Below, piece after piece: positions 1-64,000 of a stretch of DNA of 64,000 nt. A program made the position numbers and the translations under genes. A model generated the notes under the pieces. The model made no database searches and was not told the DNA's origin. It saw only the letters and a program-made list of their open reading frames with translations. This DNA is from a virus, in the IMG/VR virus record IMGVR_UViG_3300048592_000244, positions 1 to 64,000 of that record, one strand, 5' to 3'. How positions within the stretch are numbered: position 1 is the first letter of the stretch; every line of letters begins with the position of its first letter.

Positions 1-20
1 GGGAAAAGCGAGACGACCGC

Positions 21-740
21 GTGAACAAGAAGTATTGGGGGATGCTTCATATCGTCGTCGAGTTCGGGAAGGAGCACGCCGTGAACTTCGGCGAGCACAA
101 TCGGTTCATCTCAGCGTTCGGTGGCATCGTCGGCAAGGCCGGGTTCTACGGCCAGCACCACTACACGGTGATGCAGGGACAGCCTGACGCTCGTGTGGTG
201 TTTTCCGCCACCTTCCGTATGGAAGCAGAACGCCCGAAGGAAATTCCCGACAAGGAGTTCATGCTCTCCGCTCTCGGCGGTGAGGAAGTAATGAAGTCCA
301 CCTTCACCCGGTATGCCGAGCTTGCCGAGGAGTACACCAAGATGTACGAGCACGAGGAGGAGGTGAAGCGGCAGGCCAACAACATCGTCCGTCACTTCAC
401 TGAGGAAGCGTGCGCCGAGGCGAAGAAGGTGGTCCGGTACGAGCAGCGCATGGCGGCGTTGCAGGCTGAGTACGTCGCTGAGGTTGAGGCGGTGGTCAAA
501 GCGAACATGAACGACTGGAAGGCGACTCTGGTGAAGGACAATGACGTCATCACCGAAGCGATCAAGCTGGGCATGGAGCATGTACCGGCGCACGCTGTCG
601 GAGCCGCGAAGAAAACAGGCGTGTTCAGGTCCGGCAATACGGACCCGGTGAAGTACGACGTTGCCACCATTGACGAGTGGCTGGAGGAAAAAGGCCATGT
701 CGATCAAGTTGTCAGTGGGAGTCCAACCGTCGAAGGGTAA
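21..740 (+). CDS. Hypothetical charged helical protein
   Basis: A 239-residue protein I do not recognise. The first 85 residues look globular and mixed. Residues about 88-170 are rich in Glu, Lys, Arg and Ala without proline, which suggests a long helix or coiled coil. The GTG start at 21 follows a GAGACGACCGC leader that resembles the GGAGACCGAC box seen before many later genes, so I prefer it to the ATG at 42, which has only a run of G three bases upstream. The gene overlaps the next reading frame by 44 bases. No catalytic motif is visible. Confidence 0.7.
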   Translation: MNKKYWGMLHIVVEFGKEHAVNFGEHNRFISAFGGIVGKAGFYGQHHYTVMQGQPDARVVFSATFRMEAERPKEIPDKEFMLSALGGEEVMKSTFTRYAELAEEYTKMYEHEEEVKRQANNIVRHFTEEACAEAKKVVRYEQRMAALQAEYVAEVEAVVKANMNDWKATLVKDNDVITEAIKLGMEHVPAHAVGAAKKTGVFRSGNTDPVKYDVATIDEWLEEKGHVDQVVSGSPTVEG

Positions 741-948
741 GACCCAGATCGTCGTGCATTATCCGGTGCTGGAAGTCGAGAGCCCGGAGGAGGCCGAAGC
801 TCTGCTGGCTTTCACATGCAGCAAGAACAGCGACGGTCTGCACATCGCCAACGAAGTAGAACTCGACAGATCGAACGCGCTGCTTGCGTTCCAGCGGCGG
901 CTGGCCGATGCCTACGCCGTGATGAAAAGGAAACCGAGGAGGAAATAG
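697..948 (+). CDS. Hypothetical small protein (83 aa)
   Basis: The open frame extends further upstream, but the ATG at 697 is preceded by GGAGGAAAAAGG, a strong ribosome binding site lying inside the end of the previous gene. The product has a beta-like N-terminal half (Val- and Ile-rich) followed by an acidic helix and a basic tail ending in Arg-Arg-Lys. I do not recognise a family. The overlap with the upstream gene and the two-base gap to the next start suggest translational coupling in one operon. Confidence 0.65.
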   Translation: MSIKLSVGVQPSKGKTQIVVHYPVLEVESPEEAEALLAFTCSKNSDGLHIANEVELDRSNALLAFQRRLADAYAVMKRKPRRK

Positions 949-950
949 CT

Positions 951-1211
951 ATGACGAAGCGAACCTCGCACTACGAGTCCGAGGAGTACAAGAAGCTGCG
1001 TGAGCATCTTCGAGAGCACGCCACCGGCTACTGCCAGCGTGAGCATACTGGCGTGAGCGAAAGCGGCTACGGCTACCACCTCGAAATCTGGACGAACAAG
1101 CACACCATATACCCGGTGATGTTGACAGCGTGGGAGCAGCCGAGTGGTGAGTGGTACTGTCAACTTTGGGACGGCGGTCCCATTGAATTTCCCACAGAAG
1201 ACGAGGAGTAG
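951..1211 (+). CDS. Hypothetical small protein (86 aa)
   Basis: Translation most likely starts at ATG 951, placed 8 bases after GAGGAGGAAA; a longer frame beginning at 816 runs through the previous gene and has no site of its own. The protein has a charged N-terminal helix and an aromatic C-terminal half with several Trp and Tyr residues and a Gly-Tyr-Gly-Tyr stretch, ending in an acidic tail. It looks like a small folded domain of unknown function. It directly precedes the TOPRIM gene with a two-base gap. Confidence 0.65.
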   Translation: MTKRTSHYESEEYKKLREHLREHATGYCQREHTGVSESGYGYHLEIWTNKHTIYPVMLTAWEQPSGEWYCQLWDGGPIEFPTEDEE

Positions 1212-1213
1212 CC

Positions 1214-2164
1214 ATGCCGTTCATCGACTACACAGGTAAGGGCCGCAAGGGGCTGGGGAAAAAGACGCTCTGGCTGATTGAGCAGGCCAACATCATTCTG
1301 GATGAGTACACAGAGCAGGGCTACGTCCTTACGTTGCGGCAGTTGTACTACCAGATGGTCAGCCGCAATATGATCCCTAACTCCGACAAGTCCTATAACA
1401 ACCTCGGCAGTGCAATTTCCACCGGGCGTGAACGTGGTCTGATTGATTGGGACCAGTTGACTGACCGCCTGCGAGAACTGGTGGAGTGGCAGACCTACGA
1501 CAACGTGCCGGAAGCCATCAGCCAACTGGCCGAGAGATTCCGACTGGACAAGTGGCGCAACCAGTCCTACCGACCGGAGGTGTGGGTAGAGAAGGACGCG
1601 CTGAGTGACGTCGTTCGTCGTGCCTGCTGGAAATTGCAGGTGCCCTACCTTGTGTGTCGTGGCTACGGCAGTTCGTCAGCACTGTGGCAGGCAGGCCGCC
1701 GCATGATCGAGCACAGGAAGTCCGACCAGCAACCCTACGTGATCCACCTTGGCGACCATGACCCGTCCGGCCTGCACATGACGGAGGATAATCGCAACCG
1801 CATCAGCTTGTTCGGCCTGCCAGCGATGGTAGGTGACAAGCGAGCCAGACCACAACTCAAGCGTATCGCTCTGAACATGGATCAGATCGAGCAGTACAAC
1901 CCGCCGCCGAACCCGGCCAAGCAGACAGACTCACGCTGGCAAAGCTACGTGGATCAGACCGGGCTCGATGAGTCGTGGGAGCTTGACGCACTGGAGCCAG
2001 CAGTCATTGAGGAACTGATTGAGTATGCCGTGCTGGAAATTCGTGACGATGATGCGTGGGAGGAAATGGTCAAGCTGGAAAATGAAGGCCGTAAACTGTT
2101 GACCACATGCTCCGATGGCTGGGGCGATGTGCGGGAATTTTTGAATGACACGTTTGGTGAATAA
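1214..2164 (+). CDS. TOPRIM protein, TopoVI-A/Spo11-like
   Basis: This 316-residue protein resembles the A subunit of topoisomerase VI and Spo11, which cut DNA through a tyrosine. Residues 41-46 (LRQLYY) match the position of the catalytic tyrosine motif, with Tyr45 or Tyr46 as candidate. A TOPRIM metal site follows: Glu126 in VWVEKD, then Asp181 and Asp183 in GDHDPSG. Length is close to that of TopoVI-A. No ATPase B subunit is visible nearby, as in the stand-alone Mini-A group reported from phages and plasmids. The role in this phage, perhaps strand breakage for replication or recombination, is inference. A simple TOPRIM nuclease without topoisomerase activity is the alternative. Confidence 0.75.
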   Translation: MPFIDYTGKGRKGLGKKTLWLIEQANIILDEYTEQGYVLTLRQLYYQMVSRNMIPNSDKSYNNLGSAISTGRERGLIDWDQLTDRLRELVEWQTYDNVPEAISQLAERFRLDKWRNQSYRPEVWVEKDALSDVVRRACWKLQVPYLVCRGYGSSSALWQAGRRMIEHRKSDQQPYVIHLGDHDPSGLHMTEDNRNRISLFGLPAMVGDKRARPQLKRIALNMDQIEQYNPPPNPAKQTDSRWQSYVDQTGLDESWELDALEPAVIEELIEYAVLEIRDDDAWEEMVKLENEGRKLLTTCSDGWGDVREFLNDTFGE

Positions 2165-2175
2165 GGAGTGAACCC

Positions 2176-2898
2176 ATGACCGACAATGTGATAACCAAGA
2201 TCAAGCTCAACAAGCTATACACGCAGAACTGGTGGTACTTGGAGAAAATATTGCCACAGTTCTGTACCAAGCTGCCGCAGGAAAAGAAGGGCGACGTCGC
2301 CAGATTCCGCATCGACAAGCCATTGCCGACGCAGGATGAAATGACGGCGTTGATTGCCAAGTGGTACACCACCAGCGCCGAAGGACTCATCAGTGACGCG
2401 AACAGTGAGATCGAAGACCTGAAAAACGAGGTTGAGGAGTGGAAAGACAACATCGAGGAAAATTTCAGCGGCACGGAGAAGTACAACCAACTGGAGGAAG
2501 CATACGATCAGCTTGAGAACTATAGCGAACTCGAATGGCCGAGTGAAATTGAGGACTTCGAGATAGTCTACATTCCTCCGGTGCCAAAGATGTTCCGTGG
2601 GCGCATCACCCAGAGCCGTGCGTCACGTCTTGAGGAAGCCTGCGACAAGTTGCAGGTGGTTATGGACTGCCTCGAAGACCACAAGACAGAAGTCGTTGAG
2701 AAGTTGCGGAAATTGCTGGAAGACCTTGAGGACGTCGAGCGCACTGATGAGCAGCGCCAGCAGTTCTGTGATGAAAACGGCATCACAGGCGATGAAAGCC
2801 CGGATGATCTTGAGTCGGCTATCGACGACTTCATTGGTGAAATTGAAAACAACAAGTCGGAAGTCGAGGGCGTGGAGTTCCCCGGCATGTTTGGCTAA
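2176..2898 (+). CDS. Hypothetical acidic coiled-coil protein
   Basis: A 240-residue very acidic protein with no family I recognise. The N-terminal 60 residues look globular (aromatic and basic). Residues about 75-115 and 145-190 are strongly helical with heptad-like spacing of Leu and Val among Glu, Asp and Lys, so a rod or dimer is likely. The sequence ends with Phe-Pro-Gly-Met-Phe-Gly. GGAGTGAACC precedes the ATG. It lies in the same operon as the TOPRIM gene and a 112-residue protein that shares the phrase ARFR near its start, which hints at related N-terminal folds. Confidence 0.7.
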   Translation: MTDNVITKIKLNKLYTQNWWYLEKILPQFCTKLPQEKKGDVARFRIDKPLPTQDEMTALIAKWYTTSAEGLISDANSEIEDLKNEVEEWKDNIEENFSGTEKYNQLEEAYDQLENYSELEWPSEIEDFEIVYIPPVPKMFRGRITQSRASRLEEACDKLQVVMDCLEDHKTEVVEKLRKLLEDLEDVERTDEQRQQFCDENGITGDESPDDLESAIDDFIGEIENNKSEVEGVEFPGMFG

Positions 2899-2910
2899 CA
2901 GGAGACCGCT

Positions 2911-3249
2911 ATGTTCAATGACGCTTCGCCGTTCCCGTGGCTTGTGGAAGGCAACGTCCTATACCGGATCGACAAGGTGGAAGGGGGTACGGAAAAAAAG
3001 ACGGAAATTGCCAGATTTCGAGTGTTCCAGATTCAAGGCAAAAGTAAGTTGAAGGGTGTCAGCATCGAGGAGGCACACGACAACGCAGCACTGGTCGCCC
3101 ACGCTATGAAGCTCTACATGAAGATGGAGGAATTCCTGACCGATGTCTTCAACGACGCGACGACAGAGGCTGGCGGCAAGTTGGTATCAAAGGAAGCGAA
3201 GAAACTGCGGGACGAATTCTATGCCCATGAGGACGTGTCGCAGGAGTAG
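2911..3249 (+). CDS. Hypothetical protein (112 aa)
   Basis: The ATG follows an AGGAGACCGCT box, the translation-start box common in this genome. The protein begins with a beta-rich section (residues 10-48, alternating charged and hydrophobic residues) and continues as a charged helical region. The phrase EIARFRVFQ echoes the GDVARFRID phrase of the preceding gene, so the two may contain distant copies of one fold. I see no catalytic or metal-binding motif. Function unknown. Confidence 0.65.
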   Translation: MFNDASPFPWLVEGNVLYRIDKVEGGTEKKTEIARFRVFQIQGKSKLKGVSIEEAHDNAALVAHAMKLYMKMEEFLTDVFNDATTEAGGKLVSKEAKKLRDEFYAHEDVSQE

Positions 3250-3289
3250 GTAACATCAACCCATCACTTTTTTGAACAGGAGCTACACA

Positions 3290-4726
3290 ATGACAGAACA
3301 GACGACAATCGAACCGACCCCAGCATTCGAGACCGCTGAGGTCCAACAGGCACTGCGGACAGCACGCACCGTTCGCATGTCCTACGAGCCGGTCCAGAAT
3401 CTCATGGCCGAACTCAAGAACATGCAGGAGCGCAGCCGTGACTTCCTCGTCCCCTTCGACAAGTTGAAGGCGAAGCTGGTGGAAAACACCTTGCTCAAGG
3501 ACGACGGTGTTTACAGCACCTACAAGATGGTGCTGGAACTGAGCGAGGTGCCGGAAATTGGCACCATCGAACTCGGCCTGTACGAGCACGTCATCACTCA
3601 GCTTTGCCAGTTGACGACCATCAACGGCAAGGCGGGCGTGCCGACGCAGTACCTCAAGCGCCTGCTGAGTGATAACACCGACCGTGGTCTCGTGGCCCTC
3701 GGTGCCGTCAACGTGCAGGAATTGTTGAGCCGACGCTATGGCGAGGTTCACACCCGTGGCAAGACCGGCGAGGCGAAGGCGGTGCTGGTCCGCACCTTCA
3801 AGTTCGACGACGGGTTCAAGTGCCGGGCACTGTGCAGTGACCGCTACTTTCCGATCAAGACACTGGAGATGGTGACGATTGCGCTCGGCTTGGCCGGTGG
3901 CGCGATCAAGGTCAACGCTGACGGCGAGACGGCGGTGCAGGGTGCCTTCGTTTTCGACAAGCACGTCAGTGTGCAGAAGTGCAGCGTAGGCTTCACCAAC
4001 CCCAGCTACGCCTTCGACCTGCGCAACCCGGACAAGGGAATCATCCGGGCGGAGAGCATCACCAAGAACGAGGGCGGCAACCCGGTGTTCCACTACCCCG
4101 GTGGCGCGACCTACACCCTCGGCGGGAAATTCAACTACCCGGAGAGCGGGCCGCGCCAGCACCTCGTCTTCCCGGCGTGCCGAATTTCCAACAGCGAGAC
4201 CGGGGGCGGCAGCGCCGTCATCCAGCCGATGCTGTTTGAGGGTGCGTGCCTCAACGGTATGGTCTTCGCCACCGAGATGCGCCGGACACACATCGGCTCC
4301 ATCATGGAGGAAGCCAACGAGTTCGAGTCCAACGAGACCAAGAAGAAGAAAATGGAGACTGTCATCAGCATGATGACCGACGCCATGAAGCAGGTCTTCT
4401 CGATGGAGTCGTTCGAGGACAACTGCAAGAAATTCCTCAAGCTCAAGGACGTCCACCTCAAGTCGAACGTCGTCAAGGAAGTCACCGAGGAATTGCTGTC
4501 GGCGATTCCGGGCGGTGAGGGTCTGCTGGAGGACGTGCTCAAGTCCTACGAGCAGTTCACCTCCGGCATCGACTCGCTGTTCGATGTCCAGCGTGCGTTG
4601 ACCAACGTGGCGCAGGACCAGAACTACGACAAGCAGTCGGCGCTTGAGGAACTCGGCGGGATGCTGGCGTCCGGTGAGAAGAAGGTCGCTGACAAGTACC
4701 TCGTCGCGGCGACTGGCGCTCGCTAA
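3290..4726 (+). CDS. DUF932-like protein
   Basis: Start ATG 3290 has AGGAG eight bases upstream; the TTG at 3272 does not. The 478-residue product shows the layout of the phage/plasmid DUF932 family: SDRYFPI near residues 183-189, a Gly-rich middle section, and a C-x-N-G motif (Cys320, Asn322, Gly323) followed by His334 in a THIG phrase. The C-terminal 150 residues are helical and charged. DUF932 proteins are common in large phages and plasmids, often near replication genes, but their biochemical role is not established. A strong terminator follows directly, so this gene probably ends the first transcription unit. Confidence 0.7.
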   Translation: MTEQTTIEPTPAFETAEVQQALRTARTVRMSYEPVQNLMAELKNMQERSRDFLVPFDKLKAKLVENTLLKDDGVYSTYKMVLELSEVPEIGTIELGLYEHVITQLCQLTTINGKAGVPTQYLKRLLSDNTDRGLVALGAVNVQELLSRRYGEVHTRGKTGEAKAVLVRTFKFDDGFKCRALCSDRYFPIKTLEMVTIALGLAGGAIKVNADGETAVQGAFVFDKHVSVQKCSVGFTNPSYAFDLRNPDKGIIRAESITKNEGGNPVFHYPGGATYTLGGKFNYPESGPRQHLVFPACRISNSETGGGSAVIQPMLFEGACLNGMVFATEMRRTHIGSIMEEANEFESNETKKKKMETVISMMTDAMKQVFSMESFEDNCKKFLKLKDVHLKSNVVKEVTEELLSAIPGGEGLLEDVLKSYEQFTSGIDSLFDVQRALTNVAQDQNYDKQSALEELGGMLASGEKKVADKYLVAATGAR

Positions 4727-4749
4727 ACACCCTACTGTCGGAAAAGGTT

Positions 4750-4781
4750 GAGGGGCTTCCCTTTGGGCGGCCCCTCTTTTT
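4750..4781 (+). terminator. Rho-independent terminator
   Basis: A seven-base-pair GC stem (GAGGGGC with GCCCCTC) is followed by five T. It sits just after the DUF932-like gene and before the next start at 4800. Confidence 0.85.
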
Positions 4782-4799
4782 CCCGCAAGGGGGTGTACC

Positions 4800-5237
4800 G
4801 TGTCGGAAATTATGGTAAACCCCGTGGTCGCAGTGCCGATCTATGGGGTGTGCCCGGAAGGGTACATCAAGCACGAAGGCTACCCGGTCCTTGGCGTCGA
4901 TGGACGTCCGGTGCCGAGCCCGAGAGGATGGAGTGGGATGGTCGATGACCCTGACGGGTCTGTCGGCTTGATCCTGTTCGCCGCCTTCTTACCCGAGAGG
5001 GTGACTGGCGGTGAGATCATTCCTCTCGGTAGAACCTTCGCGGAAAATCTAGGGCAGGCAGCAGCAGTCATCTGCTCTTTTCCTCCGGTGTACCCCAAGA
5101 TCGAACATTTCCGAGCACGACACATGCGGGTCGTATCGGACACAGCAATCAGGGCGGATGTATTTTTCCCGCAGTGGCTGTTGGCAACAATGCTAGGGAG
5201 GAAAAAGGATGGCGGAAGTCACAGCCTATTTCGTTGA
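4800..5237 (+). CDS. Hypothetical protein (145 aa)
   Basis: The GTG at 4800 follows AAGGGGGTGTACC; an ATG at 4812 lacks a site, so GTG is preferred. The protein has a Pro- and Gly-rich N-terminal third with short beta-like segments, then a hydrophobic section (residues about 55-66) and a helical end. There is no recognisable motif. It is the first gene after a terminator, yet I see no clear sigma-70-type promoter in the 20 bases between. Its 3' end overlaps the next gene by 29 bases. Confidence 0.6.
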   Translation: MSEIMVNPVVAVPIYGVCPEGYIKHEGYPVLGVDGRPVPSPRGWSGMVDDPDGSVGLILFAAFLPERVTGGEIIPLGRTFAENLGQAAAVICSFPPVYPKIEHFRARHMRVVSDTAIRADVFFPQWLLATMLGRKKDGGSHSLFR

Positions 5238-5601
5238 AGACACATTGCACGCTGAACTCAAGCGGAATATCACGCACGACTTCCGTCTGCCTGATGTTTT
5301 CCGTCAGATTCTCCTAAAGGGAATCGAGGATTTTGACGATGTAGTATTTCCATACTTCGAGAATGAGGAGTTTGTCGCCTACCTCAAAGACCCGAAGTTC
5401 AAGAGCAGAAGGAACGGACACAGTGTCCCCGTGGAATTTCCCACGAAACGCGCATTGAAGAATTTCCAGAAGGCGACAAAGGAGGCAGCAGAGAGAGTAG
5501 AAGAAACCCTGAACCTGTCCGGCATAAGGGTGCATCACATTGTGCGGGCCATCTTCCGTAGCTGGCTCGATAAGAAACTTGAAACAACGCTGGTCAACTA
5601 G
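5209..5601 (+). CDS. Hypothetical protein (130 aa)
   Basis: AGGGAGGAAAAAGG immediately precedes the ATG. The 130-residue protein is helical and charged with a basic central part (residues 60-95) and a final helix containing Ile-Phe-Arg-Ser-Trp-Leu. It is not assigned to a family. The next gene starts 15 bases downstream behind its own GACAGGAG site, consistent with one operon. Confidence 0.65.
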   Translation: MAEVTAYFVEDTLHAELKRNITHDFRLPDVFRQILLKGIEDFDDVVFPYFENEEFVAYLKDPKFKSRRNGHSVPVEFPTKRALKNFQKATKEAAERVEETLNLSGIRVHHIVRAIFRSWLDKKLETTLVN

Positions 5602-5616
5602 AGACAGGAGATTGGA

Positions 5617-7293
5617 ATGAACGAGGCCATGCAGGAAACCACGCGAGCAACTCAGGCAGATTTTCACCCAGAGAATCTGCTGACCGGCGCGATGGTTTCA
5701 GGCACGCATCCGGTCAGTGCGCCGGGCGGCCTGCTCAATCGAGTCTGGCACCTGTTCGACCAAGCCCAGAAGGGCGGCATCAGCACAGAACGTGTGCATG
5801 AGATCGTCCGGGGCTTGCCGGAACTGCGCCAACTCGTCGAGCAGTACACCGACCCCAGCACGGGCAAACCGCGTGCAGAGTGTGCCGACCCATCGAACCC
5901 CGGTGTGGTCGCAATGAAAGATGAGACCGCGTGCTTCGGCAGGAAGTGCGGATTCGCGTCCGGCTGCTTCTTGCAGTGCTCACTCGGTCCATCACATCGA
6001 CAGGACGGGACGCCCCTCGGCGTAGAGGGACAGGCCCCGGCCTACAACACAGCAGGACAGCCGCTCGGCAACGAGCAGTACACAGGCGTGCTCAAGGTGG
6101 ACGCCGAGGGGAACGTAATTTCCCCACAGCGCCACCGGGACAACTCGTGCATCACGCTGAGTATGTTCCTGCGTCTGGCGGGGATACCGCCCGCGCCGAC
6201 ACAACAACTGTCGGATGCACTGTGGGACATACTCCCGCAGGCACTGACAGCAGTGGAGCAGGGACTGCAAGCCCAGCCACAGCCGACCCCCGCAGCAGCG
6301 GCCCCGGCACAGGCACCGCCTGCACCACCGTCAGCACCACCGGCACCGCCACAGCCAGCCGCACCACCGCAGGCTGCTCCGCCCCAGCCGCAGGCTGCAC
6401 CACAGCCCCCGCAGGCGGCACCGCAGACTGCACCTCCAGCGCAGACACCGGCCCCGGCGACTCCGCCTGCTGGTCATGGATTGCCGCCGATTTTCCCCGG
6501 CGTCAATCTGAGCTACGACCAGCAGTGCGAATTGCACGCACTGATGTATGCGCTGGAGCACTCGCCGGAAAAGCCGAAGGGCGCACAGGCGATCAAGAAC
6601 ATGGAGAAGCGACACGCAGAAGCGAAGAAAACGCCGAAGGCAATTCTCGCTGCGTGGCGTAAGCCGTGCGAAGATCGCTCGCTGGTCATCGGTAGCGGCA
6701 CCAGTGCCCGGTTGAAGCCGGAGTTCTGGCCGCAGCACATTCCGGTTCCTGCGGGATATTACGAGACCGAAGCGCAGGCGTCGGCCACTCCGCAACCAGC
6801 ACCGCCTGCAAACGTACCGCCCGCTGCCGCGCCAGTGACTCCGGCAGCACCACAGACTGTGGCAGTGAAGCCGCAGGCTCCCGTGAACCCGCCGCAGAAG
6901 GTCGATTCCGACCAGAACGCGCCGGTGGCACCGGGAGGAAATTCACCCGTGGACATCAACACTGTCACACTGGACCCGGAATCAAAGGAGGCCCTCAAGG
7001 CGCACACCGAGGCTATGAACAATCTCGCTGCCGCGCTGCGAGGAGCGACGTTTCAAGGAGCAGGGCAAGACGGAGGAAATTCAGCAGGGACTCAACAAGC
7101 TGGCCAACCTCCTGCTCAAGTTCAGCAAGCTCCCCAACAGCCCGCAGGGCCTCCGCCAGTCTACGCCCAGCAACCTGCCCCAGCCCAGCAGCCCCCAGCC
7201 CCTCCCCCTCCACCAACCACCTTCCGTGACTACGGAAATCCCGTCAACGCCAGCGGTCCCATCGTTGACCCCGGACAGCCAACCATCAGGTAA
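5617..7293 (+). CDS. Cys- and Pro-rich hypothetical protein
   Basis: A 558-residue protein of three parts. Residues 1-190 are globular and contain a cysteine cluster (CFGRKCGFASGCFLQC, about residues 106-121) that could bind metal. Residues about 215-290 are an Ala-Pro-Gln linker. A helical domain with further cysteines follows (about 295-395), then a second Pro-Ala-Gln tail with a run of prolines near the end. The long disordered segments suggest a scaffold that tethers partners, perhaps in replication because the polymerase and ssDNA-binding candidate are close. Its last 65 bases overlap an open frame leading into the H1-like gene. Function is not recognised. Confidence 0.65.
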   Translation: MNEAMQETTRATQADFHPENLLTGAMVSGTHPVSAPGGLLNRVWHLFDQAQKGGISTERVHEIVRGLPELRQLVEQYTDPSTGKPRAECADPSNPGVVAMKDETACFGRKCGFASGCFLQCSLGPSHRQDGTPLGVEGQAPAYNTAGQPLGNEQYTGVLKVDAEGNVISPQRHRDNSCITLSMFLRLAGIPPAPTQQLSDALWDILPQALTAVEQGLQAQPQPTPAAAAPAQAPPAPPSAPPAPPQPAAPPQAAPPQPQAAPQPPQAAPQTAPPAQTPAPATPPAGHGLPPIFPGVNLSYDQQCELHALMYALEHSPEKPKGAQAIKNMEKRHAEAKKTPKAILAAWRKPCEDRSLVIGSGTSARLKPEFWPQHIPVPAGYYETEAQASATPQPAPPANVPPAAAPVTPAAPQTVAVKPQAPVNPPQKVDSDQNAPVAPGGNSPVDINTVTLDPESKEALKAHTEAMNNLAAALRGATFQGAGQDGGNSAGTQQAGQPPAQVQQAPQQPAGPPPVYAQQPAPAQQPPAPPPPPTTFRDYGNPVNASGPIVDPGQPTIR

Positions 7294-7357
7294 GAGTGGG
7301 AAAGGGCCTGCCACTCCACCACCTTTGAATTCTCAGGCCGACAAGAAGGGAGCAGCC

Positions 7358-7753
7358 GTGAAGAAGACGGCGAAGAAAAAGCCCGCTGCCAAGAAGAAGG
7401 CGGCTGCCAAGAAAAAGGCACCCGCCAAGAAGAAGGCACCGGCAAAGAAGTCCGCAGCAAAGAAGAAGCCCGCTCCGAAGAAGTCGGCTGCCAAGAAGAA
7501 GACGGCAGCCAAGAAGACGGGCGGGGCGAAGAAGGAAAATCGCCCGCGCAACATCGAGCCGCACAAGCGTTACCCGGACGTCGAGTCCCTGCCCTACAAG
7601 TGGCAGCCGGGCACGAAGAACAAGCCGGGCAGTCGTGGTCGTCCGCCCACCGGCTGGAAGAAGAACAAGGACGGCGAGTACGTGGCACCGAAGGGCTGGC
7701 GGAAAATCGCTGGCAAGTGGCACAAGCCCGTGGAGAAGGCCAAGCGAAAGTAG
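7358..7753 (+). CDS. Histone H1-like Lys-rich protein with AT-hook
   Basis: GTG 7358 follows AAGGGAG at good spacing; the frame is open back to GTG 7226 but that start has no site and lies inside the previous gene. The 131-residue product has an N-terminal tail of AAKKK, APAKKK and PAPKKS repeats (residues 1-60), like the C-terminal tails of histone H1 and bacterial Lys/Ala-rich nucleoid proteins. Residues 91-100 contain SRGRPPTGW, with the RGRP core of an AT-hook, which binds the minor groove of A/T-rich DNA. The C-terminus is basic and rich in Trp and Gly. It probably binds or compacts DNA; whether phage or host DNA is unknown. Confidence 0.75.
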   Translation: MKKTAKKKPAAKKKAAAKKKAPAKKKAPAKKSAAKKKPAPKKSAAKKKTAAKKTGGAKKENRPRNIEPHKRYPDVESLPYKWQPGTKNKPGSRGRPPTGWKKNKDGEYVAPKGWRKIAGKWHKPVEKAKRK

Positions 7754-7762
7754 AGGTGCGCC

Positions 7763-8329
7763 TTGAGCAAGAGGATGTACGACGCGCTCAAGGACATCGA
7801 CGACATGGGTCTCGTCAGGCTGCGTGAGCAGCACAAGCGTGACCCGCTTTGGTGTGACATGAAATTCGGTTCTTGGCTGGAGGTGCATTGTGCCTTCCGT
7901 GAGGAACGCGGTCATGCCAGAGGCTTTCGCAAGGGAGTGAAGGCTGGGTTGGCGCAGGCCGAAGGGTCTGCGCCGCCCGTCTCCATGAGGACGCTGGCGT
8001 TAGTCTGGAGCGTGATAGTCCCGGCCCTCGCGGTCGTGAACGCTCTGCTGCTATTGCTGGCAATCAGGTTGATTGAGCAGGACTTAGTGATGTGGTTCGC
8101 CCTCGTCATGGTGCTCCTGCCTTTCACAGTTGTGTCGCAGGCAACAGGTACAGGCTTCCTGTTCCAACGGCTCTACAACTGGTGTCTCAAACGACCGGAT
8201 GATGAGCAGGTGATTGTCGTAAAGGTTCCGATGGAATCTGCCGATAAGGAAGACGACGAATACAGCCTGTGGGGAACGGAGCAGATCAACGATGCCATCA
8301 ACGAAGGTACAAGTAGCGACAGCGACTGA
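7763..8329 (+). CDS. Two-helix membrane protein
   Basis: The TTG at 7763 follows GAGGTG at good spacing and is preferred to ATG 7775, whose only purine run is too close. The 188-residue product has a soluble basic N-terminal domain (about 70 residues), two strongly hydrophobic segments at about 75-97 and 104-124, and an acidic soluble C-terminal tail. Both ends would lie on the same side of the membrane. The 3' end overlaps the polymerase start by 38 bases. It is not a recognised holin; a membrane anchor for replication is conceivable from position only. Confidence 0.6.
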   Translation: MSKRMYDALKDIDDMGLVRLREQHKRDPLWCDMKFGSWLEVHCAFREERGHARGFRKGVKAGLAQAEGSAPPVSMRTLALVWSVIVPALAVVNALLLLLAIRLIEQDLVMWFALVMVLLPFTVVSQATGTGFLFQRLYNWCLKRPDDEQVIVVKVPMESADKEDDEYSLWGTEQINDAINEGTSSDSD

Positions 8330-11309
8330 TCTCTGGTCCCAGACAGACATCCAAAAGTCGTGTGAGAAATGCGGCTTGGCAGCAAGGTGTGCAAAGGCCG
8401 CCCCCACCATGTTCCCATCGGTGGGGGCGGACGCGCCCCAGATCATGGTGGTGCTCCCGTACCTTGAAGACTACGACGTAGCCTGCCGCAGAATTTCCCT
8501 CGACACACCGGAGAACCGCGCACTGCACCAGATGGGTGTGAACGTCGGCCTACCGGCTGACTGGTTGCAGTCGATGACACGGGTAGCCGTGGCTGTGAAG
8601 TGCCCCGGCAAGTTCACCAACAAGCAGCAGAAAATCTGCCGCGACTTCCTGCTGGCGGAAATTGCCCACTACCGACCGAAGCTGGTCATCACTGTGGGCA
8701 AGCAGGCAACGCAGGCACTACTTGGCCGCGCTGACGGGATACCGGGGCGCGGTCGTGTGTTCAGACTGGATGAGGAAATTGGCCTTGCTGTGAAGTCCAC
8801 GGACGGAGGGTCTGTTTCCCTGACTGGTTTGCAGGAAATTCGGGTCATGCGTATCCAGAGACCGGGTGTGTGTCTGGACGACCCCGGCTTTATGGAGTAC
8901 CTCCACCATGACTTCACCAAGATACCGCGTGTACTCAACGGCACGTTCGCAGAGAAGACCAGCTTCGAGGGCAGGAACTACCACCTGTGCATGGACTTCG
9001 CCTTCGCCAAGCAGGCGCTTGAGTATTTCATGCAGGTTCCGTCACTCAGCTTTGACATCGAGACTGGCCCCGGCCAGTACGGCTTGGAGCCTTACTCAGC
9101 CAAGAGCAAAATCCTTTGCATCGCGTTTGCTGACCGTCAGCGGAACTCGTATTGCATTCCTCTCGATCACAAGGACAGCCCCCTCCGAGAGCATCTACCG
9201 GAGCTTGTACCACTTATCCGCGACGTCTTGACGCGTAAAGAGTGCGAGATCAATGCCCACAACGGGAAGTTCGATACCCGGTGGGTGAAATTGAAGTACG
9301 GCTTCGACACAGCACTGACCGATGACACGATGATTATGCACGGCGTGCTGGACGAGAACAAAGAGCACGCTCTCAAGACACTGGCTGAACTCGACACTGA
9401 CCTTGGCTACTACGACGACGAACTCCTCGAATGCTTCCGTGACGAGAAGGGGAAATTAGTCAGCAAGTTCAAGCGTGACTACGAGGCGCACGTTCCGCTG
9501 GAAACTCTCATGCGGTATTGCTGCGCCGACGCCGACGCCGCTGAGGTGCTCAAGTGGGTATATAAGGAAAGGCTTGAGCAGCAGTACCTCTGGACGTACT
9601 ACCGCGAACACAAGATGCCGGACCTGCTGGAGACGTCGTACACCGAGCAACACGGCATAGCGTTTGACCGGAAACATCGAGATGAAGTAGAAGCAAAAGC
9701 GAAGACCCGGCTGGCGGAAATTTCCACAGCCATCGCTGACGACCCTTGGCTCCATCATTGGCGTGTGCAGCGATCAGCGGAATATGAGGCCGAAGGCCGG
9801 GTCTTCCTTCATCTCGACACCATCTGGTCGAGCTACCAAGCCTACCTGCGCAATGACACCCCGTTATTTTCCATCGCCCATCAGGCTGACTGGCACAACG
9901 GTGCCAGCACCAAGGCGCTGACGGACAACAAAATCCTGCGCAAGATGAAGGGCAAGCTGGAGCCGTACAAGTCGAAGGTCTACACGCTGGAAGGCGACGA
10001 CGGCATCACGCTGAACATGAACTCGTCGAAGCAGTTGCAGACCTTCTTGTACGACTCGCGGTTCCTCAACCTCAAGGTCACGAAGACGACGAAGAAGGGC
10101 GGGGCACCGGCGACCGACAAGAATTTCCTCAAGCTGCACGAGGATAAATTCCCCGTGCTCAAGAACCTGCTGGCGTACAAGTCAGTCATCAAGTGGAAGT
10201 CCACCTACCTCGATCCGTTCGTCTGCGGCGAATACTACGACGAGGAAAAGAACGAGACCCGCATTGGCTACATCAAGGAAGACGGGCTCATTCACCCGGA
10301 GTACCTGCTCACCGGCAATGACAAGGGCATGGACAAGAAGGGTGACGCACGCGGCACCAAGACCGGCAGAAAATCCTGCATCAACCCGAACATCCAGAAT
10401 CAGAAGAAGCGCGGTGAGGGTGCCAAGGACATCTACAAGTATTTCATCTCCCGCTGGCGTGACGACGGCGGTCTGATTCTACAGGCCGACTTCTCGCAGC
10501 TTGAGTTGCGTGTCTTCGCCGCCATCGCCGGTGTCCGGTGGATGATCGAGAAGTACCAGCAGGGCGCTGACTTGCACACCGAGATGGGCATGGAGGCTTT
10601 CCGCAAGTCGCGGGAAGAAGTCTTGGCCAACGGGAAATTGCTGCGTGCTGCTGCGAAGGAATTGTGGTTCGGCCCGATCTACGGTGAAGGCTGGAAGGCG
10701 ATCAAAGAAGTGCTGGAGCAGAAGCACAAGATCAAGATGACAGACGAGGAAGCCAAGGCGCTCATGGATAGCATGTACGCCAAGATGCCTGAGTACCAGC
10801 AGTACAAGGCAGGCTACGAGCAACTCCTCGACAAACACGCTGCTGTGTGGACTCCGTTCGGTCGCCGCCGCTACCTGCCGATGTGGTTCTCCCGCGAGAA
10901 GTGGATGAAGGCACGCGCCGGTCGTCAGGCTGGTAATTTCATCATCCAGTCCACCGGCTCTGACATGACGTCGTGGGCTTGGGTGATCCTGAACAGGTGG
11001 GCACGCGAGAACGGCGTCCAGTCCAAGCTCATCATCAGCGTGCATGACTCGCTGGTCTGGGACGTGTACCCCGGTGAGCGGGAAATCATCGCAGCCGTGA
11101 CCCGGTACGTGATGGAGCATCTGCCGTTCAGCTTCGTTAGGAACTGGCCGGTGCCGATCCTCGCTGACATCGAGTACGGTGACGCCGGTGGTTCGTGGGG
11201 CGATATGGAGGAAATTGAGCGTGGTGTGATCGACCAGCATGAAGGTCAGATCATCACGCTGCCGCAGTACCAGAGTGTTGTCGCAACGTGTGATAGGATG
11301 ATTGCATGA
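8292..11309 (+). CDS. Family A DNA polymerase with UDG-like domain
   Basis: Replicative polymerase, 1005 residues. N-terminal domain (about 20-215) matches family 4 uracil-DNA glycosylases: Cys24, Cys27, Cys104 and Cys116 fit the 4Fe-4S ligands and VITVGKQA follows. The catalytic GEAPG is replaced by a VLPYLED stretch and the HPS motif by RPG, so glycosylase activity is doubtful. The 3'-5' exonuclease has Asp255/Glu257 (FDIETG), Asp328 and Tyr409/Asp413. The polymerase domain has motif A Asp733 and Glu738 (ADFSQLELR), motif B Arg785, Lys789, Phe793, Tyr797 (FGPIYG) and motif C His918-Asp919. The architecture recalls phage SPO1 DNA polymerase. The start overlaps the upstream gene; the end overlaps the next by ATGA. 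Confidence 0.93.
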   Translation: MPSTKVQVATATDLWSQTDIQKSCEKCGLAARCAKAAPTMFPSVGADAPQIMVVLPYLEDYDVACRRISLDTPENRALHQMGVNVGLPADWLQSMTRVAVAVKCPGKFTNKQQKICRDFLLAEIAHYRPKLVITVGKQATQALLGRADGIPGRGRVFRLDEEIGLAVKSTDGGSVSLTGLQEIRVMRIQRPGVCLDDPGFMEYLHHDFTKIPRVLNGTFAEKTSFEGRNYHLCMDFAFAKQALEYFMQVPSLSFDIETGPGQYGLEPYSAKSKILCIAFADRQRNSYCIPLDHKDSPLREHLPELVPLIRDVLTRKECEINAHNGKFDTRWVKLKYGFDTALTDDTMIMHGVLDENKEHALKTLAELDTDLGYYDDELLECFRDEKGKLVSKFKRDYEAHVPLETLMRYCCADADAAEVLKWVYKERLEQQYLWTYYREHKMPDLLETSYTEQHGIAFDRKHRDEVEAKAKTRLAEISTAIADDPWLHHWRVQRSAEYEAEGRVFLHLDTIWSSYQAYLRNDTPLFSIAHQADWHNGASTKALTDNKILRKMKGKLEPYKSKVYTLEGDDGITLNMNSSKQLQTFLYDSRFLNLKVTKTTKKGGAPATDKNFLKLHEDKFPVLKNLLAYKSVIKWKSTYLDPFVCGEYYDEEKNETRIGYIKEDGLIHPEYLLTGNDKGMDKKGDARGTKTGRKSCINPNIQNQKKRGEGAKDIYKYFISRWRDDGGLILQADFSQLELRVFAAIAGVRWMIEKYQQGADLHTEMGMEAFRKSREEVLANGKLLRAAAKELWFGPIYGEGWKAIKEVLEQKHKIKMTDEEAKALMDSMYAKMPEYQQYKAGYEQLLDKHAAVWTPFGRRRYLPMWFSREKWMKARAGRQAGNFIIQSTGSDMTSWAWVILNRWARENGVQSKLIISVHDSLVWDVYPGEREIIAAVTRYVMEHLPFSFVRNWPVPILADIEYGDAGGSWGDMEEIERGVIDQHEGQIITLPQYQSVVATCDRMIA

Positions 11310-20082: not shown

Positions 20083-20093
20083 AAGGGGACGAC

Positions 20094-20357: not shown

Positions 20358-20374
20358 ACAGGAGAACAGAAGTT

Positions 20375-21716: not shown

Positions 21717-21755
21717 ATAAACCAGAACAGGATTTTTTTCTAAGGAGAACACACG

Positions 21756-22439: not shown

Positions 22440-22466
22440 GTCTTTCGACTGAGAGTGAGTGAAAAT

Positions 22467-22490
22467 GGGGCGGCGAATTTCCGCCGCCCC
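22467..22490 (+). terminator. GC-rich terminator hairpin
   Basis: GGGGCGGCG pairs with CGCCGCCCC (nine base pairs); the loop holds the AATTTC core of the dispersed heptamer. No T tract follows (ACTTCG), so termination efficiency is uncertain. Confidence 0.55.
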
Positions 22491-22512
22491 ACTTCGATAA
22501 GGGAGAGCATCA

Positions 22513-26047: not shown

Positions 26048-26050
26048 GTC

Positions 26051-52525: not shown

Positions 52526-53320
52526 GTGGGCATCGAGAGCAAACTACAGGGGTTCGAGCGTGACGCGGAACGCGGCGAGAAGCTGCGTGAGGAAATTGGC
52601 AAGAAGCTCGGCCTCCTCAACCGCGATCTCATGCGGGACATCTCCGAGATGGTCCGTGTGATGTTCCGCTCTGACAAGGAGTTTGAGCGTGCCCTGAAAC
52701 AGCGCCTTGATGCAGCCGCTACCAGCAAGAAGGAATTCATCCTCACGCAGAGCGGTCAGAAGTTCAAGGTCAGCGACATCGACCCCAAGCGCGTGATCGC
52801 CCAGCGCGAACTCACCGGCTTCGAGGAGGAAAAGCTCAAGAAAATCAAAGAGACCATCGGTGAGGTAGAGACCGCTGCCAAGGCCGCCATCGGTGCCGTG
52901 CGTCGGGAGCGTGTGCTGCTGAACGAGTTCTCCAAGGACGCCCGGTCTATCGCCAGCGATCTGCGCCGGGAACTCCGCGACAGTGACGACAAGAGCAAGC
53001 TCGAAAGCCAGATCAACGATTTCGAGAGTAAGGCCGGAAGAATTTCCTCCGCTGAGTCCGATCTGGAAGGAATGCAGCGTGAGGCGCTCAAGGTGATGCA
53101 GACGGCCAAGTCAGCACAGTCTGTGATCTCCGGTGTGAGCAGCCGGACAGACCTTGAGGAAATTCTTGTGGGCGCAGCAGGTGGCTTTGGCATCACAGCC
53201 GCCGTGGCCGCGCTAGTGGGATCAATGGGCGCTGCCGGTATTCTGGCGATGCCTGCTCTGATAGCATTCGCCCTGTCACGTATCGTGAAGCTGGTGAAAG
53301 ACGTGGCAGGGGACGACTGA
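52526..53320 (+). CDS. Coiled-coil protein with hydrophobic C-terminus
   Basis: GTG 52526 has AGGAG five bases upstream; the open frame continues upstream to 52415 without a site. The 264-residue protein is a long charged coiled coil (about residues 10-220) ending in a hydrophobic stretch rich in Gly and Ala (residues about 222-255) that could enter a membrane. Within a tail-connector cluster this may be a minor tail or ejection protein. The stop overlaps the next ATG. Confidence 0.6.
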   Translation: MGIESKLQGFERDAERGEKLREEIGKKLGLLNRDLMRDISEMVRVMFRSDKEFERALKQRLDAAATSKKEFILTQSGQKFKVSDIDPKRVIAQRELTGFEEEKLKKIKETIGEVETAAKAAIGAVRRERVLLNEFSKDARSIASDLRRELRDSDDKSKLESQINDFESKAGRISSAESDLEGMQREALKVMQTAKSAQSVISGVSSRTDLEEILVGAAGGFGITAAVAALVGSMGAAGILAMPALIAFALSRIVKLVKDVAGDD

Positions 53321-54419: not shown

Positions 54420-55655
54420 ATGCCACAGATCGGTCGTTCGGTGGTGAGCCCTTTCAACCCGCAGAACCTCGTGCTGCCGTCACGAATTTCTGTGTGGTTC
54501 GCGCCTTTCGACGCGCAGGGCCGCCAGTCCGACTACTTCGAGCTTGGCGATGTCTCGGACATTGAAATCAACATCGCTGAAACCTTTGCTGAAAAGAAGT
54601 CAGCGCGACAGGGCACCTTCCAGACCATCAAGCGCCTCATCAACGACCTCGTTGGCGAGATCACGATGAACCTCTCGGAAGTCGTCGGTCGCAACCTCGA
54701 ACTTCTTTTCCGCCCAGCCCAAGTCCTCCTCCGCGACGGCGTAGCAAACGCTCTCAGTGTGTGGCACGAGAGCACTCGTCCTCGCCTGACCGGAACCACA
54801 CCGTCCGACGTAGCACCCGGCATCGCGCAGGAGCGCGTTGACGGCGGCGCGTTGAACGAGCAGGACTTGACCATCCTGAGCGTCACGAACCTCGCGGGCA
54901 ACGTCCAGTACATTTCCGGCACGGACTACACGTTCGTGCAGGCAGTGACTGGCGTGTTCGACTCGGCCACGCTGACGTTCGCCACGTTCACCACGGCAGT
55001 CGGTGACGAAATCATCCTCACCGAAGACGACGGCACCATCACGACTCTGACGGCAGGTACGGAGTTCGAGGATGGCGCAACCGCAGGTTCAGTAGGTGCT
55101 CTGGCGGCGGGAGTGGCGGAAGCCATCAACGCTTACAGCAGCAGCTACCACGCCACGGCGGCTGCTGGCGTCGTCACGATCAACCACAACAGCCTCAGTG
55201 CGGCGGCCCCGGCTGCCATCACTGTGACTGGCGCGGCCCTGATCGTGGACGTCGGTGCAGGCCCGTTTGCCTTCGCTGGCTTCGTCGCCACGGTCCCGGC
55301 CACCATCGCACGCATCAGCACCGGAGCCATTCCGAACGGTGCCGAAGTGAAGGTGACGTTCACCTTCGAGCGTGCAGCGGTCGAGTACCAGTTGCAGTCG
55401 GGGCAGGTCTTGGAGGGAGCGATGAAGCTCCAGATTCTCTCCACGTCCGGCCCGCAGGGGTTCTACGAGTTCTACCGCGTGAACCTCGAAATCGGCGGCA
55501 ACATCACCGTCAACCCGCAGGAATTTATGATGGCCCCTCTCAAGGCCACCATTCTGACGGGCGGCGACGGACGCCGAGGCCGCTTCGTGCAGGCGTGCAA
55601 CTTCGCTGACTTCTTCGTGCAGTCCAGCGTCACGACCTGCTCGGCAGTTGCGTAA
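54420..55655 (+). CDS. Major tail tube protein
   Basis: The 411-residue protein precedes the G/GT chaperone and tape measure genes, the universal place of the tail tube protein in siphoviruses. The N-terminal (ELGDVSDIEINIAETFAEKK) and C-terminal (IGGNITVNPQEFMMAPLKAT) parts fit the tube fold, while about residues 160-315 are an Ala/Thr/Val-rich inserted domain with repeated ITEDDGT-like strands, as in surface-exposed Ig-like insertions. AGGGAGC precedes the ATG. Confidence 0.75.
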   Translation: MPQIGRSVVSPFNPQNLVLPSRISVWFAPFDAQGRQSDYFELGDVSDIEINIAETFAEKKSARQGTFQTIKRLINDLVGEITMNLSEVVGRNLELLFRPAQVLLRDGVANALSVWHESTRPRLTGTTPSDVAPGIAQERVDGGALNEQDLTILSVTNLAGNVQYISGTDYTFVQAVTGVFDSATLTFATFTTAVGDEIILTEDDGTITTLTAGTEFEDGATAGSVGALAAGVAEAINAYSSSYHATAAAGVVTINHNSLSAAAPAAITVTGAALIVDVGAGPFAFAGFVATVPATIARISTGAIPNGAEVKVTFTFERAAVEYQLQSGQVLEGAMKLQILSTSGPQGFYEFYRVNLEIGGNITVNPQEFMMAPLKATILTGGDGRRGRFVQACNFADFFVQSSVTTCSAVA

Positions 55656-62800: not shown

Positions 62801-64000
62801 CCTCCAAGTTCACCGGCGTGATGTCGCAGATCGAACAGACCATCGAGCGCATCAAGATCATCGTGTTCGAGGAACTCGCGCCGGTACTCAACGACGCGCT
62901 GGAGACGTTCGGCAAGGACAGCCGCACGCAGATCGACTTCATTCTGGAGAACGTCCGCACAGCCGTCCGCATCGTCATCAACACGATCATGCTCGTGGCG
63001 GATTTCATCAACAAGCGGTACATCCAAGCAGGCAACGGCGCGGAGCAGTTGTTCGCGGACATTGTGGTGGCCGGACGCATCGCATGGAATGCTATCGGCG
63101 ATCTGCTCGGCATTGCGATGGAGCATGGCGTGCGTCTGGCTGGCGCTGTCCTCGATGCAGCGTGGAATTCACTTGAAGGAAAAAGCAAGAGCAAGCTGTT
63201 TGGGGTGTTAGTTTGGTTTGGTGGTTTGCTAGGAAAAGCAGGCGCGTCCATCATTGCTTTGGTAGGTGCTACTTTTGAAAGTGCTCTTGTCGTAGGCGGA
63301 AATTGGGTCGATGAAGTCAAGATCATTGCCTTGAAATTAGGGGCATGGCTGTTGGAGCAGTCCGAAGGGCTCATCAATAAAATCGGCGGTGGTGTCTTCG
63401 ACGTCATCAATGCAGTTCGTGCGTTCTTCGGCGAAGAAGCCCTCGATATACCGGGGCTAGATAAGTTGGTTCAGGGGCGTCTTGCGATAGAGAAGTCCAT
63501 CGCCTCTATCGCGGCTGAAAACGCGAAGGAAAATAAAAAGTCCCTATCGTTTGCAGAGCAGTTCTCCAAGATTTTTGGAGACATTAGTAAGAAGGTAGAC
63601 GAGGGCGGCGCGTCTTTACAAAAGATGTTCGATACTTCGCTCGCTACAGACGAAGTAAACGCGTTTCTTGAAAGCATCGAAGGAGCAAGCGATGAAGCAG
63701 AACGTCTTAGTGGCGTAATCGACCGCCTGAATAAAGATGGCACGCTAGATTTCGCCCTCTCCGGTGAGGAAAGTGTTGAACGTCTGCGCAGTGTGCTTGT
63801 TGATTTTGCTGAACGGGGCATCATCCCACCGGGTGCTGTTTCGGAAGGCACAGAACGTCTGCGTAAAGAAGCCATCAAGGCGCTGGGCGACGTCGCCGAC
63901 GAAACTGGTCAGGCACTCAAGACGGCGTTCGAGGTTGGCTTTGACAAGCTGGCAGATGAATTTCCCGAAGTCGTCGAACTGCTCAAGCAGATCGGCATTG
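56869..64000 (+). CDS. Tape measure protein (partial, 3' end missing)
   Basis: The ATG follows the T-part stop directly. The frame stays open to the right edge: at least 2377 residues. It contains long coiled-coil stretches (about residues 700-880 and 960-1440, Ala/Glu/Lys/Gln-rich), several hydrophobic segments (about 120-300, 460-500 and 1700-1840) and helical repeats, all typical of tape measure proteins that set tail length. Patches with AT-richer codons (about 61650-61830 and 63180-63780) suggest mosaic origin. At about 1.5 angstroms per residue the tail would exceed 350 nm. No lysozyme or peptidase motif is evident in the visible part. Confidence 0.93.
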   Translation, partial: MALSVGEVAVDFVANLDDLFKSLEKLGEKLDEALSGKQEIKVSFDERIIAQIDKMADGVEKISNLTERVRTVAEGVFDSLDGRIGNTSEQIEKSFGGAVKNIEGQTDDFITTFINKVTKGVSRLSPLVLGQLFGATLLIERLVAGGFKLTSILPKFLVSGTGAVGIMQGLVQAVKTLNFPFLLGFLVDVSQSLLSVTTVVALLTTGLRGLTGLALRFLGKRPESQVQKFVVLLETLNAGLTDMLAKTRIFIERMFFITSGLTSIAGLLTILGTGVTGLTAVVSPFLAAVFVGISGIRLAAARVSDMLLRFRASAGDGRAQTTLFLRALRSLFPILDAIARNAKPIAKMINEFAKGGFAKRMKQVIGEFQKALSGISRIEDAINRLAATMEKTSKQVMKQMGQFISKADELFKKIGRQGARDALASIERVRSSATSATKEVQQSVAQIAPAADKAEKSATRLGARLVEMGKRTLGLIGRTGVAGTGSLLGLMLFGTSGNIAPFLAPLAQFRDRLLGGFSEVSKGARQVGDTVAESFGSGAAVEAATGFLDAMFSTLGGLLDVGVELSKKFWGVFVDPATLTSAFAFAGQTVAGLAPLLATGAGAVLTPLVLRGVKNLTVASAGVIRDAASGVWPVVRKSLVEPVKDFLLFLPRQTKRFATQTVPDMVNRLTARVFKGTVAVGERVKQFFGLAELTEEQANEKAIAAIQERTAGMREQRSALKEQLNLLQRSKDFGEDEVARRAKLKQVEDQLTTARSKAAELERKLKGDLTVDPEGAKKKLAATREEIKRLAQEASTLDAPFTEVQQRIIEAETQLRSLTDALSKELSQEAIEKLTADIKANSRPIRSAIANVGIDAGKSFASGMKAATSLVRAVLVSPFSSAATKRNIQAAASNLSKSFRSAFSAAFRIGGGILGLIPGLKGIGERLKARAGTTAGLTAGTPEEEAAKRKAAADVKAAKAQDELTQVLRAEKVVAEAAIRQKELEKAASELQINNQMLMSGQLEKTENVMREMTGSFLGLANLAGRLEETTNETATSARLLSKNLRAADFQPAIDLARQIDQSMPSLQDMRSQFERLADAVGMDVKTREAARAQLDAAEDKITSVLGERAEALVKLTGSDSLQIEAAQKELKALEAKAASDLGTVQDQEAVVAQRVKVAKMVQAAETKLIQELKDAEEAVNVNSAAFAKWTKEIDKQQAIIDTSGKSSKAGKEAQEKLTRAMENRQKVAATAENELTKRVDEVQQVMLASRAALNKLPNAVKDFAATFNRITNVEGVQTLASLAAQEAAGEELRIFTDQYANSLKEQAAEIELQQQVLKEEEAAARALLKEKRSSAVIQKELDAALKLSTIREEQLAVAAKGAQLAMEDIKVAEEETADAATKHEKALQQGTSATKEMSTQALRVAGALEKAKLAIDEGGQSMKELAVAADETATGTGTAKPPRSGARIGQGQTGQLADLAAVLLSGATAKDIEKAPLTPIRERMKNAPEVQAIQALVGTEDALERVLAILNQITQQPVQRLKKLSDGFSNLLTLLKRLEASPERLEKFTQQFSGEVIGDMSRMVGLMDKMVANVKKLKVPGGAGARGQLKGFESFALRTQAQLMQKAMEGAIDWSTVIERWMAALRAEFPNVKIDLSAGQQVLATELELAARNALKQVMGRLSARGNQGEKLVAMIFDGARAAKSKAGKAGEEVADEFAANFPQSMPRRGPLREMLTKLPMLGQMIGQRMLAGIGVLKELTSQFMRQGFEGFLPAAFNMGASVAEKFFGGLGSGLNKIGDALRKIPVIGILGEIPLKVAGFIAKGLGVITAGIAKMAAQVSGAVTNLVKETSTKLLKLGLDATRLRLDPNNLQRFNEAMGILGGSASDAEAGLQQLTQSIEQVARGSAPELEAAFADAGLSMQDLSKLGSDEIFLRIAKAANEATGDIRKQSDLLRLIGADFSSLRGVVLSGSEAIADAFTRANKNPPISQKTLELASKFTGVMSQIEQTIERIKIIVFEELAPVLNDALETFGKDSRTQIDFILENVRTAVRIVINTIMLVADFINKRYIQAGNGAEQLFADIVVAGRIAWNAIGDLLGIAMEHGVRLAGAVLDAAWNSLEGKSKSKLFGVLVWFGGLLGKAGASIIALVGATFESALVVGGNWVDEVKIIALKLGAWLLEQSEGLINKIGGGVFDVINAVRAFFGEEALDIPGLDKLVQGRLAIEKSIASIAAENAKENKKSLSFAEQFSKIFGDISKKVDEGGASLQKMFDTSLATDEVNAFLESIEGASDEAERLSGVIDRLNKDGTLDFALSGEESVERLRSVLVDFAERGIIPPGAVSEGTERLRKEAIKALGDVADETGQALKTAFEVGFDKLADEFPEVVELLKQIGI

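Follow-up and report, generated by a model that had tools for sequence, protein, structure and literature searches.

The uptake sequences of Haemophilus (uptake signal sequence, USS) and Neisseria (DNA uptake sequence, DUS) occur genome-wide, in both orientations and in all codon phases, partly altering protein sequence; they are features of bacterial genomes and go with competence machinery. HIP1 of cyanobacteria (GCGATCGC) is a further dense short word, palindromic in this case, that occupies synonymous sites. In phage DNA, Chi sites (E. coli GCTGGTGG) are short, non-palindromic words that are over-represented throughout the genome, with an observed over expected ratio (O/E) of 2.3-3.1; they are host-specific and have been proposed to shield against end-degrading nucleases and restriction (Bobay et al. 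2013, PMC3784561). Restriction-site avoidance in phages can go as far as complete loss of palindromic Type II sites and depends on lineage, site elimination having been found in roughly one in ten viral genomes surveyed, chiefly for orthodox Type II enzymes (Rusinov et al. 2018, PMC6286503). Here we describe a phage genome with both an over-represented heptamer, GGAAATT (AATTTCC on the opposite strand), and a sweeping loss of restriction-type recognition sequences. The DNA belongs to an uncultivated tailed phage, IMGVR_UViG_3300048592_000244; the window is the stretch from position 1 to 64000 of that record, and the rest of its 106,113 bases was analysed as well. Site avoidance bears on the purge and not on the heptamer, which appears to behave in the manner of over-represented words such as Chi or the uptake sequences. 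It shares with uptake sequences its presence in both orientations and all phases, and with HIP1 its density at synonymous sites, but it sits in a phage, and we know of no uptake role for it there.

An earlier note on this DNA had proposed that GGAAATT is over-represented throughout the genome, and this claim withstood both Markov and codon-preserving controls. The window contains 98 exact copies on the two strands, compared to 22.7 expected from a third-order Markov model, and AATTTCC is its most over-represented 7-mer (z 15.8). In the whole record, 157 copies were found vs. 35.5 expected under the same model, giving an O/E (about 4.4) of the same order as that of phage Chi. Synonymous shuffles yielded 33.5 +/- 3.0 copies when codon usage was kept, 38.5 +/- 4.2 when each codon was kept with its next base, and 51.9 +/- 5.4 when both neighbouring bases were kept. 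We also used a conditional codon-choice model, in which each codon picks among its synonyms given its real neighbours, purged words are forbidden and the motif is counted once per codon touched; GGAAATT reached 402 such model units vs. 190 expected (z +24). Each of the six strand and phase classes was enriched in this model (z +6.9 to +13.3), and with all tetranucleotides as covariates GGAAATT was still the top 7-mer (z +11). The best 7-mer in eight control phages, a small set picked for convenience and cut to at most 50 kb, had a z of 4.8-9.3, vs. 13.3-13.5 per 50 kb here.

The enrichment extends beyond synonymous codon choice. Intergenic DNA holds 18 copies in 8.7 kb (vs. 1.2-1.4 expected), and tripeptides that can be encoded with the heptamer are themselves in excess (314 vs. 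224 +/- 14). The note had argued that the heptamer imposes codons otherwise rare in this genome; AAG (78%) and ATC (69%) do predominate, but GAA, at 43% of Glu codons, is not rare. Codon or codon-pair bias as a cause was ruled out by the synonymous shuffles together with strand symmetry. These results show that the enrichment is real and that neither codon usage, nor neighbouring bases, nor the restriction-site purge identified below accounts for it. Membership of HIP1 does not apply, the HIP1 core CGATCG being absent (0 vs. 43 expected), and a literature search found no description of GGAAATT as a phage motif.

The signal is one of double-stranded DNA, not of mRNA, since the heptamer is used equally in sense (85 of 192 protein-permitted sites, 44%) and antisense (53/122, 43%) orientation; of the DNA- or RNA-level signal suggested earlier, only the DNA half is thus retained. 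Asn-Phe-[HLPQR] tripeptides use the heptamer in 21 of 22 places. Related words are preferred too, with log-odds of +2.9 for GGAAATT, +2.6 for GGAAAAT, +1.7 for GGAATTT and +1.3 for GGAATAT (157, 79, 53 and 14 raw copies, respectively). As all four variants of the two W positions are preferred, the consensus is GGAAWWT, and the exact heptamer is its optimum, not the sole word as first supposed. In a model of single changes, the favoured words were GGAAATT (+3.9), GGAAAAT (+3.0), TGAAATT (+2.5), GGAAATA (+2.4), GGATATT (+1.8) and AGAAATT (+1.8), while G or C at positions 4 and 5 scored about zero and GAAAATT was negative, a graded response resembling that of a binding matrix. GGAAATT is thus the optimum of a degenerate, strand-symmetric signal, maintained at some 157 sites, a figure that rises to about 300 when the W variants are included. 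A longer motif was rejected, the flanks being almost neutral apart from a weakly favoured G three bases upstream. So was a general preference for A-tracts: unrelated A/T words do not show the same enrichment (AAAAA, z -2.2; AAAATT depleted).

Copies are spread fairly evenly along the sequence, at 9-23 per 10 kb, and the earlier hand counts of 23 in 1-10000 and 12 in 20000-30000 proved exact. Their spacing is random (coefficient of variation 0.94); regular spacing, which the note had suggested examining, and helical phasing were rejected, any 10.5-bp signal being weak at most. None of the 12 permitted sites in the genes for the major capsid and major tail proteins and in the gene preceding the capsid gene carries the heptamer, vs. 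44% over all genes, perhaps because codon selection overrides the heptamer there.

The second feature of the genome is a purge of recognition sequences. Of the 64 six-base palindromes, 48 are absent from the 106 kb, with 225 palindromes seen in all vs. 1704 expected. Among the 597 enzyme sites of a REBASE-derived list (Biopython), 68 are absent, counting only sites with at least 5 copies expected. Reduced to independent sequences, with TTAA (1 copy), CAAAT and CCGNCGG added, they give 57 recognition sequences that together have 1 copy in the whole record vs. about 2,469 expected; CCWGG alone has 0 vs. 261. The loss is specific to the spacer: CCA-N6-TGG is absent, while the same half-sites with N1-N5 and N7-N11 spacers have 20-59 copies; GAC-N3-GTC is absent vs. 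22-50 for other spacers; and CCT-N5-AGG and GAT-N4-ATC show the same pattern. An unbiased scan of all 3-N(4-9)-3 words found only GATN4ATC, CCTN5AGG and CCAN6TGG depleted. Five well-expected palindromes (GAATTC, GACGTC, ACGCGT, TGGCCA and TGCGCA) occur about as often as expected or moderately less often, so there is no general dislike of palindromes. Since sites are gone while near-identical controls are kept, we read the purge, from its sequence pattern, as probable restriction-site elimination.

Between 0 and 22 sites are missing from each control phage, in stretches of at most 50 kb, compared to 47-48 in this phage, and no report of a genome with an equally extreme purge was found in the open papers searched. 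Two of these controls, Pseudomonas phage ZY21 and FP_Mushu, lack 22 sites in 50 kb and 12 sites in 37 kb, respectively; the purging of many sites in one genome may be more common than the literature usually suggests. Some purged words match no enzyme in the list used, namely CAAAT (0 vs. 159 expected), CCGNCGG (0 vs. 52) and CCACCC (2 copies), and would predict restriction specificities outside it.

Searches with the capsid protein identified two family-level relatives, IMGVR_UViG_3300017991_000075 (G003; 99,054 bases) and IMGVR_UViG_3300017992_000021 (G004; 77,059 bases), whose capsids are 74-76% identical to that of this phage, most of the shared proteins being 30-55% identical. Conservation of the heptamer in related phages, a further check proposed earlier, was not seen: G003 has 11 copies (z +1.0) and G004 has 8 (z -1.7), the chance level, and neither relative has it at any of the 6 identical tripeptides in aligned positions. 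At heptamer codons, amino-acid identity is close to background (44 vs. 46%, respectively), indicating that the motif lies in neither unusually conserved nor unusually variable places. The relatives share the capsid, terminase, portal and tail genes with this phage, which speaks against a conserved packaging or structural signal of the phage family; the idea that the heptamer guides packaging is not upheld in that form. Their purged sets are also different and smaller: at one threshold, 61 recognition sites are absent here, 26 in G003 and 18 in G004. Counts in this phage, G003 and G004 were 0, 213 and 0, respectively, for CCWGG, 0, 163 and 0 for CAGCTC, 0, 140 and 80 for CTGAAG, 0, 161 and 116 for CAAAT, and 29, 0 and 27 for ACGCGT; CCGNCGG has 10 and 30 copies in G003 and G004, and CCACCC 23 and 36. 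We noted in addition that G003 lacks ACGCGT and CACGTG and nearly lacks TTAA and GACGTC, that G004 lacks CCWGG and CAGCTC, and that all 18 sites absent in G004 are also absent here or in G003. With relatives that lack the heptamer and have other purged sets, the sequence comparison indicates that both features are specific to individual lineages, and they are probably host-specific. It should be noted that the divergence from G003 and G004 is deep.

Genes were called with a simple codon-score caller written for the analysis, and a few boundaries may be wrong. Besides the genes in the table below, the phage encodes a DnaB helicase, a Toprim primase, a sigma factor, an SbcCD-like pair, a UvsX-like (UvsX/RecA-like) recombinase, a UvsW-like helicase, and small helix-turn-helix (HTH), DnaD- and DnaT-like proteins. 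Accessory genes, among the small genes at 2911-56868 of the window and in the rest of the record, include a ThyX-type thymidylate synthase, an HNH/NUMOD4 endonuclease and a patatin-like phospholipase. No tRNA genes were found, no DNA methyltransferase was present among the Pfam matches seen, and no RecBCD inhibitor was recognised among the family matches seen. A query with 15 kb of sequence gave no DNA match in the phage collection, and a search of bacterial genomes with two phage proteins found no host locus. IMGVR_UViG_3300048591_000280 is the same phage (100% identity across 67,023 bases); the sole difference between this second contig and the record is a gap of ~71 bases at 100305-100377 of the record. 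The record's final 100 bases (106014-106113) are repeated near 603-702, which might reflect a circular permutation of the record or mark the first 600 bases as an assembly tail.

Features of the window. Copies are listed by leftmost base and strand; - denotes AATTTCC on the + strand.
Feature	Position	Strand	Remark
GGAAATT copies	239+, 1186-, 1414-, 1629+, 2035+, 2708+, 3003+, 3553+, 4125+, 4183-, 4805+, 5435-, 5461-, 6117-		
GGAAATT copies	6937+, 7075+, 8492-, 8657+, 8774+, 8834+, 9451+, 9716+, 9719-, 10122-, 10633+, 11210+, 12115-, 12797+		
GGAAATT copies	13641+, 13706-, 14021+, 14418+, 15845+, 17421+, 18313+, 18377-, 19401+, 19542-, 19787+, 20897+, 21238+, 22412+		
GGAAATT copies	22476-, 23146+, 24026+, 24217-, 25397+, 27731+, 27978+, 29250+, 29580+, 30300+, 33005+, 34176+, 34831+, 35527+		
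GGAAATT copies	35992-, 37052+, 38061-, 38264+, 38623+, 39035+, 39533+, 39695-, 40330-, 41532+, 41852+, 42136-, 42342+, 42552+		
GGAAATT copies	43186+, 43490+, 44200+, 45283-, 46239-, 46530-, 48168+, 49554+, 50628-, 51173+, 51618-, 51833-, 52591+, 53041-		
GGAAATT copies	53158+, 53836+, 53896-, 53972+, 55738+, 57400-, 57744-, 57990-, 60444+, 60795+, 61754-, 61972-, 63298+, 63959-		
First window copy	239-245	+	within gene 21-740
Overlapping inverted pair forming GGAAATTTCC	9716-9725		within DNA polymerase gene
Intergenic copy	52591-52597	+	one of 18 in the record
Last window copy	63959-63965	-	within long presumed tape-measure gene
Family A DNA polymerase gene	8292-11309	+	heptamer at 10/17 peptide-permitted sites
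Terminase large subunit	33432-35390		
Portal gene	37728-39959	+	heptamer at 6/10 permitted sites
Gene before capsid gene	46896-48053		
Major capsid protein gene	48197-49198	+	heptamer at 0/4 permitted sites
Major tail protein gene	54420-55655	+	heptamer at 0/4 permitted sites
Reading frame of 2,791 residues	56869-65244		crosses window end; probably tape-measure protein
All 57 purged sequences absent	1-64000		including CCWGG, TTAA, CAAAT, RGATCY, CTGAAG, CTCTTC, CAGCTC, ACTGGG
Purged sequences absent, further examples	1-64000		CCANNNNNNTGG, GACNNNGTC, CCTNNNNNAGG, GATNNNNATC, CCGNCGG, most 6-bp palindromes

What might GGAAWWT do? Our tentative preference, by analogy, is for a Chi-like signal read by an end-processing recombination nuclease of the host, most likely of the RecBCD/AddAB class, whose activity it would attenuate. 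In a host population rich in restriction enzymes, where phage DNA would be cut, or would enter as a linear molecule, each copy would shield the DNA from degradation and recombination would recycle it. Weak positive selection, most likely exerted via this host enzyme, would then keep each copy. Related phages presumably have different hosts, and both motif and purged set would differ with them. We prefer Chi because it is a documented example of a positive genome-wide word in phages, with survival of restricted DNA among its proposed benefits (PMC3784561), because such a word would be host-specific, and because the genome shows the marks of extreme restriction pressure. The heptamer is also, like Chi, a short non-palindromic word in excess of what composition predicts. 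The UvsX/RecA-like and SbcCD-like set, with no RecBCD inhibitor recognised among the family matches seen, counts in favour of this role as well. Several points weigh against this proposal. Known Chi sequences are G-rich, while the heptamer is AT-centred and degenerate; the phage encodes recombination genes of its own, including a recombinase; and a mutation or repair bias would give much the same pattern. Phage Chi also has 0.2 copies per kb vs. about 1.5 per kb here. Finally, the copies are evenly spread rather than concentrated between origin and packaging site, although such concentration is reported for lambdoids only and is no general defining feature of Chi (PMC3784561).

Two other explanations are almost as good as the Chi-like one. 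GGAAWWT could be the site of a different DNA-binding protein, either a phage protein acting in nucleoid formation, condensation or replication, or a host nucleoid protein, for example a xenogeneic silencer for which the copies serve as decoys; bound copies would aid compaction, replication or gene control. We consider this conceivable but somewhat doubtful. The graded preferences resemble a position weight matrix with a degenerate AT centre, the signal is strand-symmetric, 92 of the 136 genes are without counterpart in G003 and G004, so that a lineage-specific binder is easily possible, and the HTH, DnaD- and DnaT-like proteins would be of the right kind; no candidate protein is tied to the motif, however, and the random spacing and weak phasing speak against it. 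About equally doubtful is a bias of mutation or mismatch repair that depends on sequence context, in the manner of very-short-patch repair, and would push sequences towards GGAAATT without benefit. Strong depletion is seen for GGAAGTT and GGAGATT, each one transition away from the heptamer, as such a bias would predict, the enrichment is seen between genes and at the amino-acid level, and the genes that resist it, capsid and major tail, are presumably highly expressed. On the other hand, the bias would have to favour no fewer than two different substitutions, at two positions, as well as the transversion variants (AA, TT), and selection at fixed amino acids also yields neighbour depletion. The sole close genome has the same sequence across 67 kb, leaving no mutation signature to measure.

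The remaining explanations fare far worse. That the heptamer is a by-product of the purge, left over once alternatives were forbidden, is improbable and largely refuted: the absence of CAAAT, TTAA and most palindromes does limit A/T words, but forbidding about 60 purged words shifts the expectation only from 184.7 to 190.4 model units, with z staying at +24, and competing words such as GGAAATC (48 copies) were not purged. A small contribution from softer avoidance of further words is conceivable. A translational or mRNA signal, whether codon-pair bias or a ribosome-binding-like GGA, would fit some intergenic copies that lie shortly upstream of genes and in their orientation; equal antisense use, the three phases and the recurrence of the same word over different codon pairs refute it, leaving it scarcely credible.

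In the most far-reaching interpretation, the heptamer, a host-specific positive word with an 18- to 50-fold synonymous preference over hundreds of codons, might serve as a passport that spares the phage DNA from degradation by the host, side by side with the purge of nearly every sequence that the host population cuts, with relatives carrying other passports for other hosts; we put this forward as a speculative possibility. If the heptamer is Chi-like or otherwise read by the host, the genome of an uncultivated phage would show which words its hosts cut (the 57 purged sequences) and also which they protect. Host restriction repertoires, recombination signals and hosts themselves would then be predictable from viral metagenomes, and there would be a direct test of how far a phage shapes its genome around the DNA defences of its host. 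Globally, this genome looks tuned, word by word, to the DNA-handling enzymes of some host.

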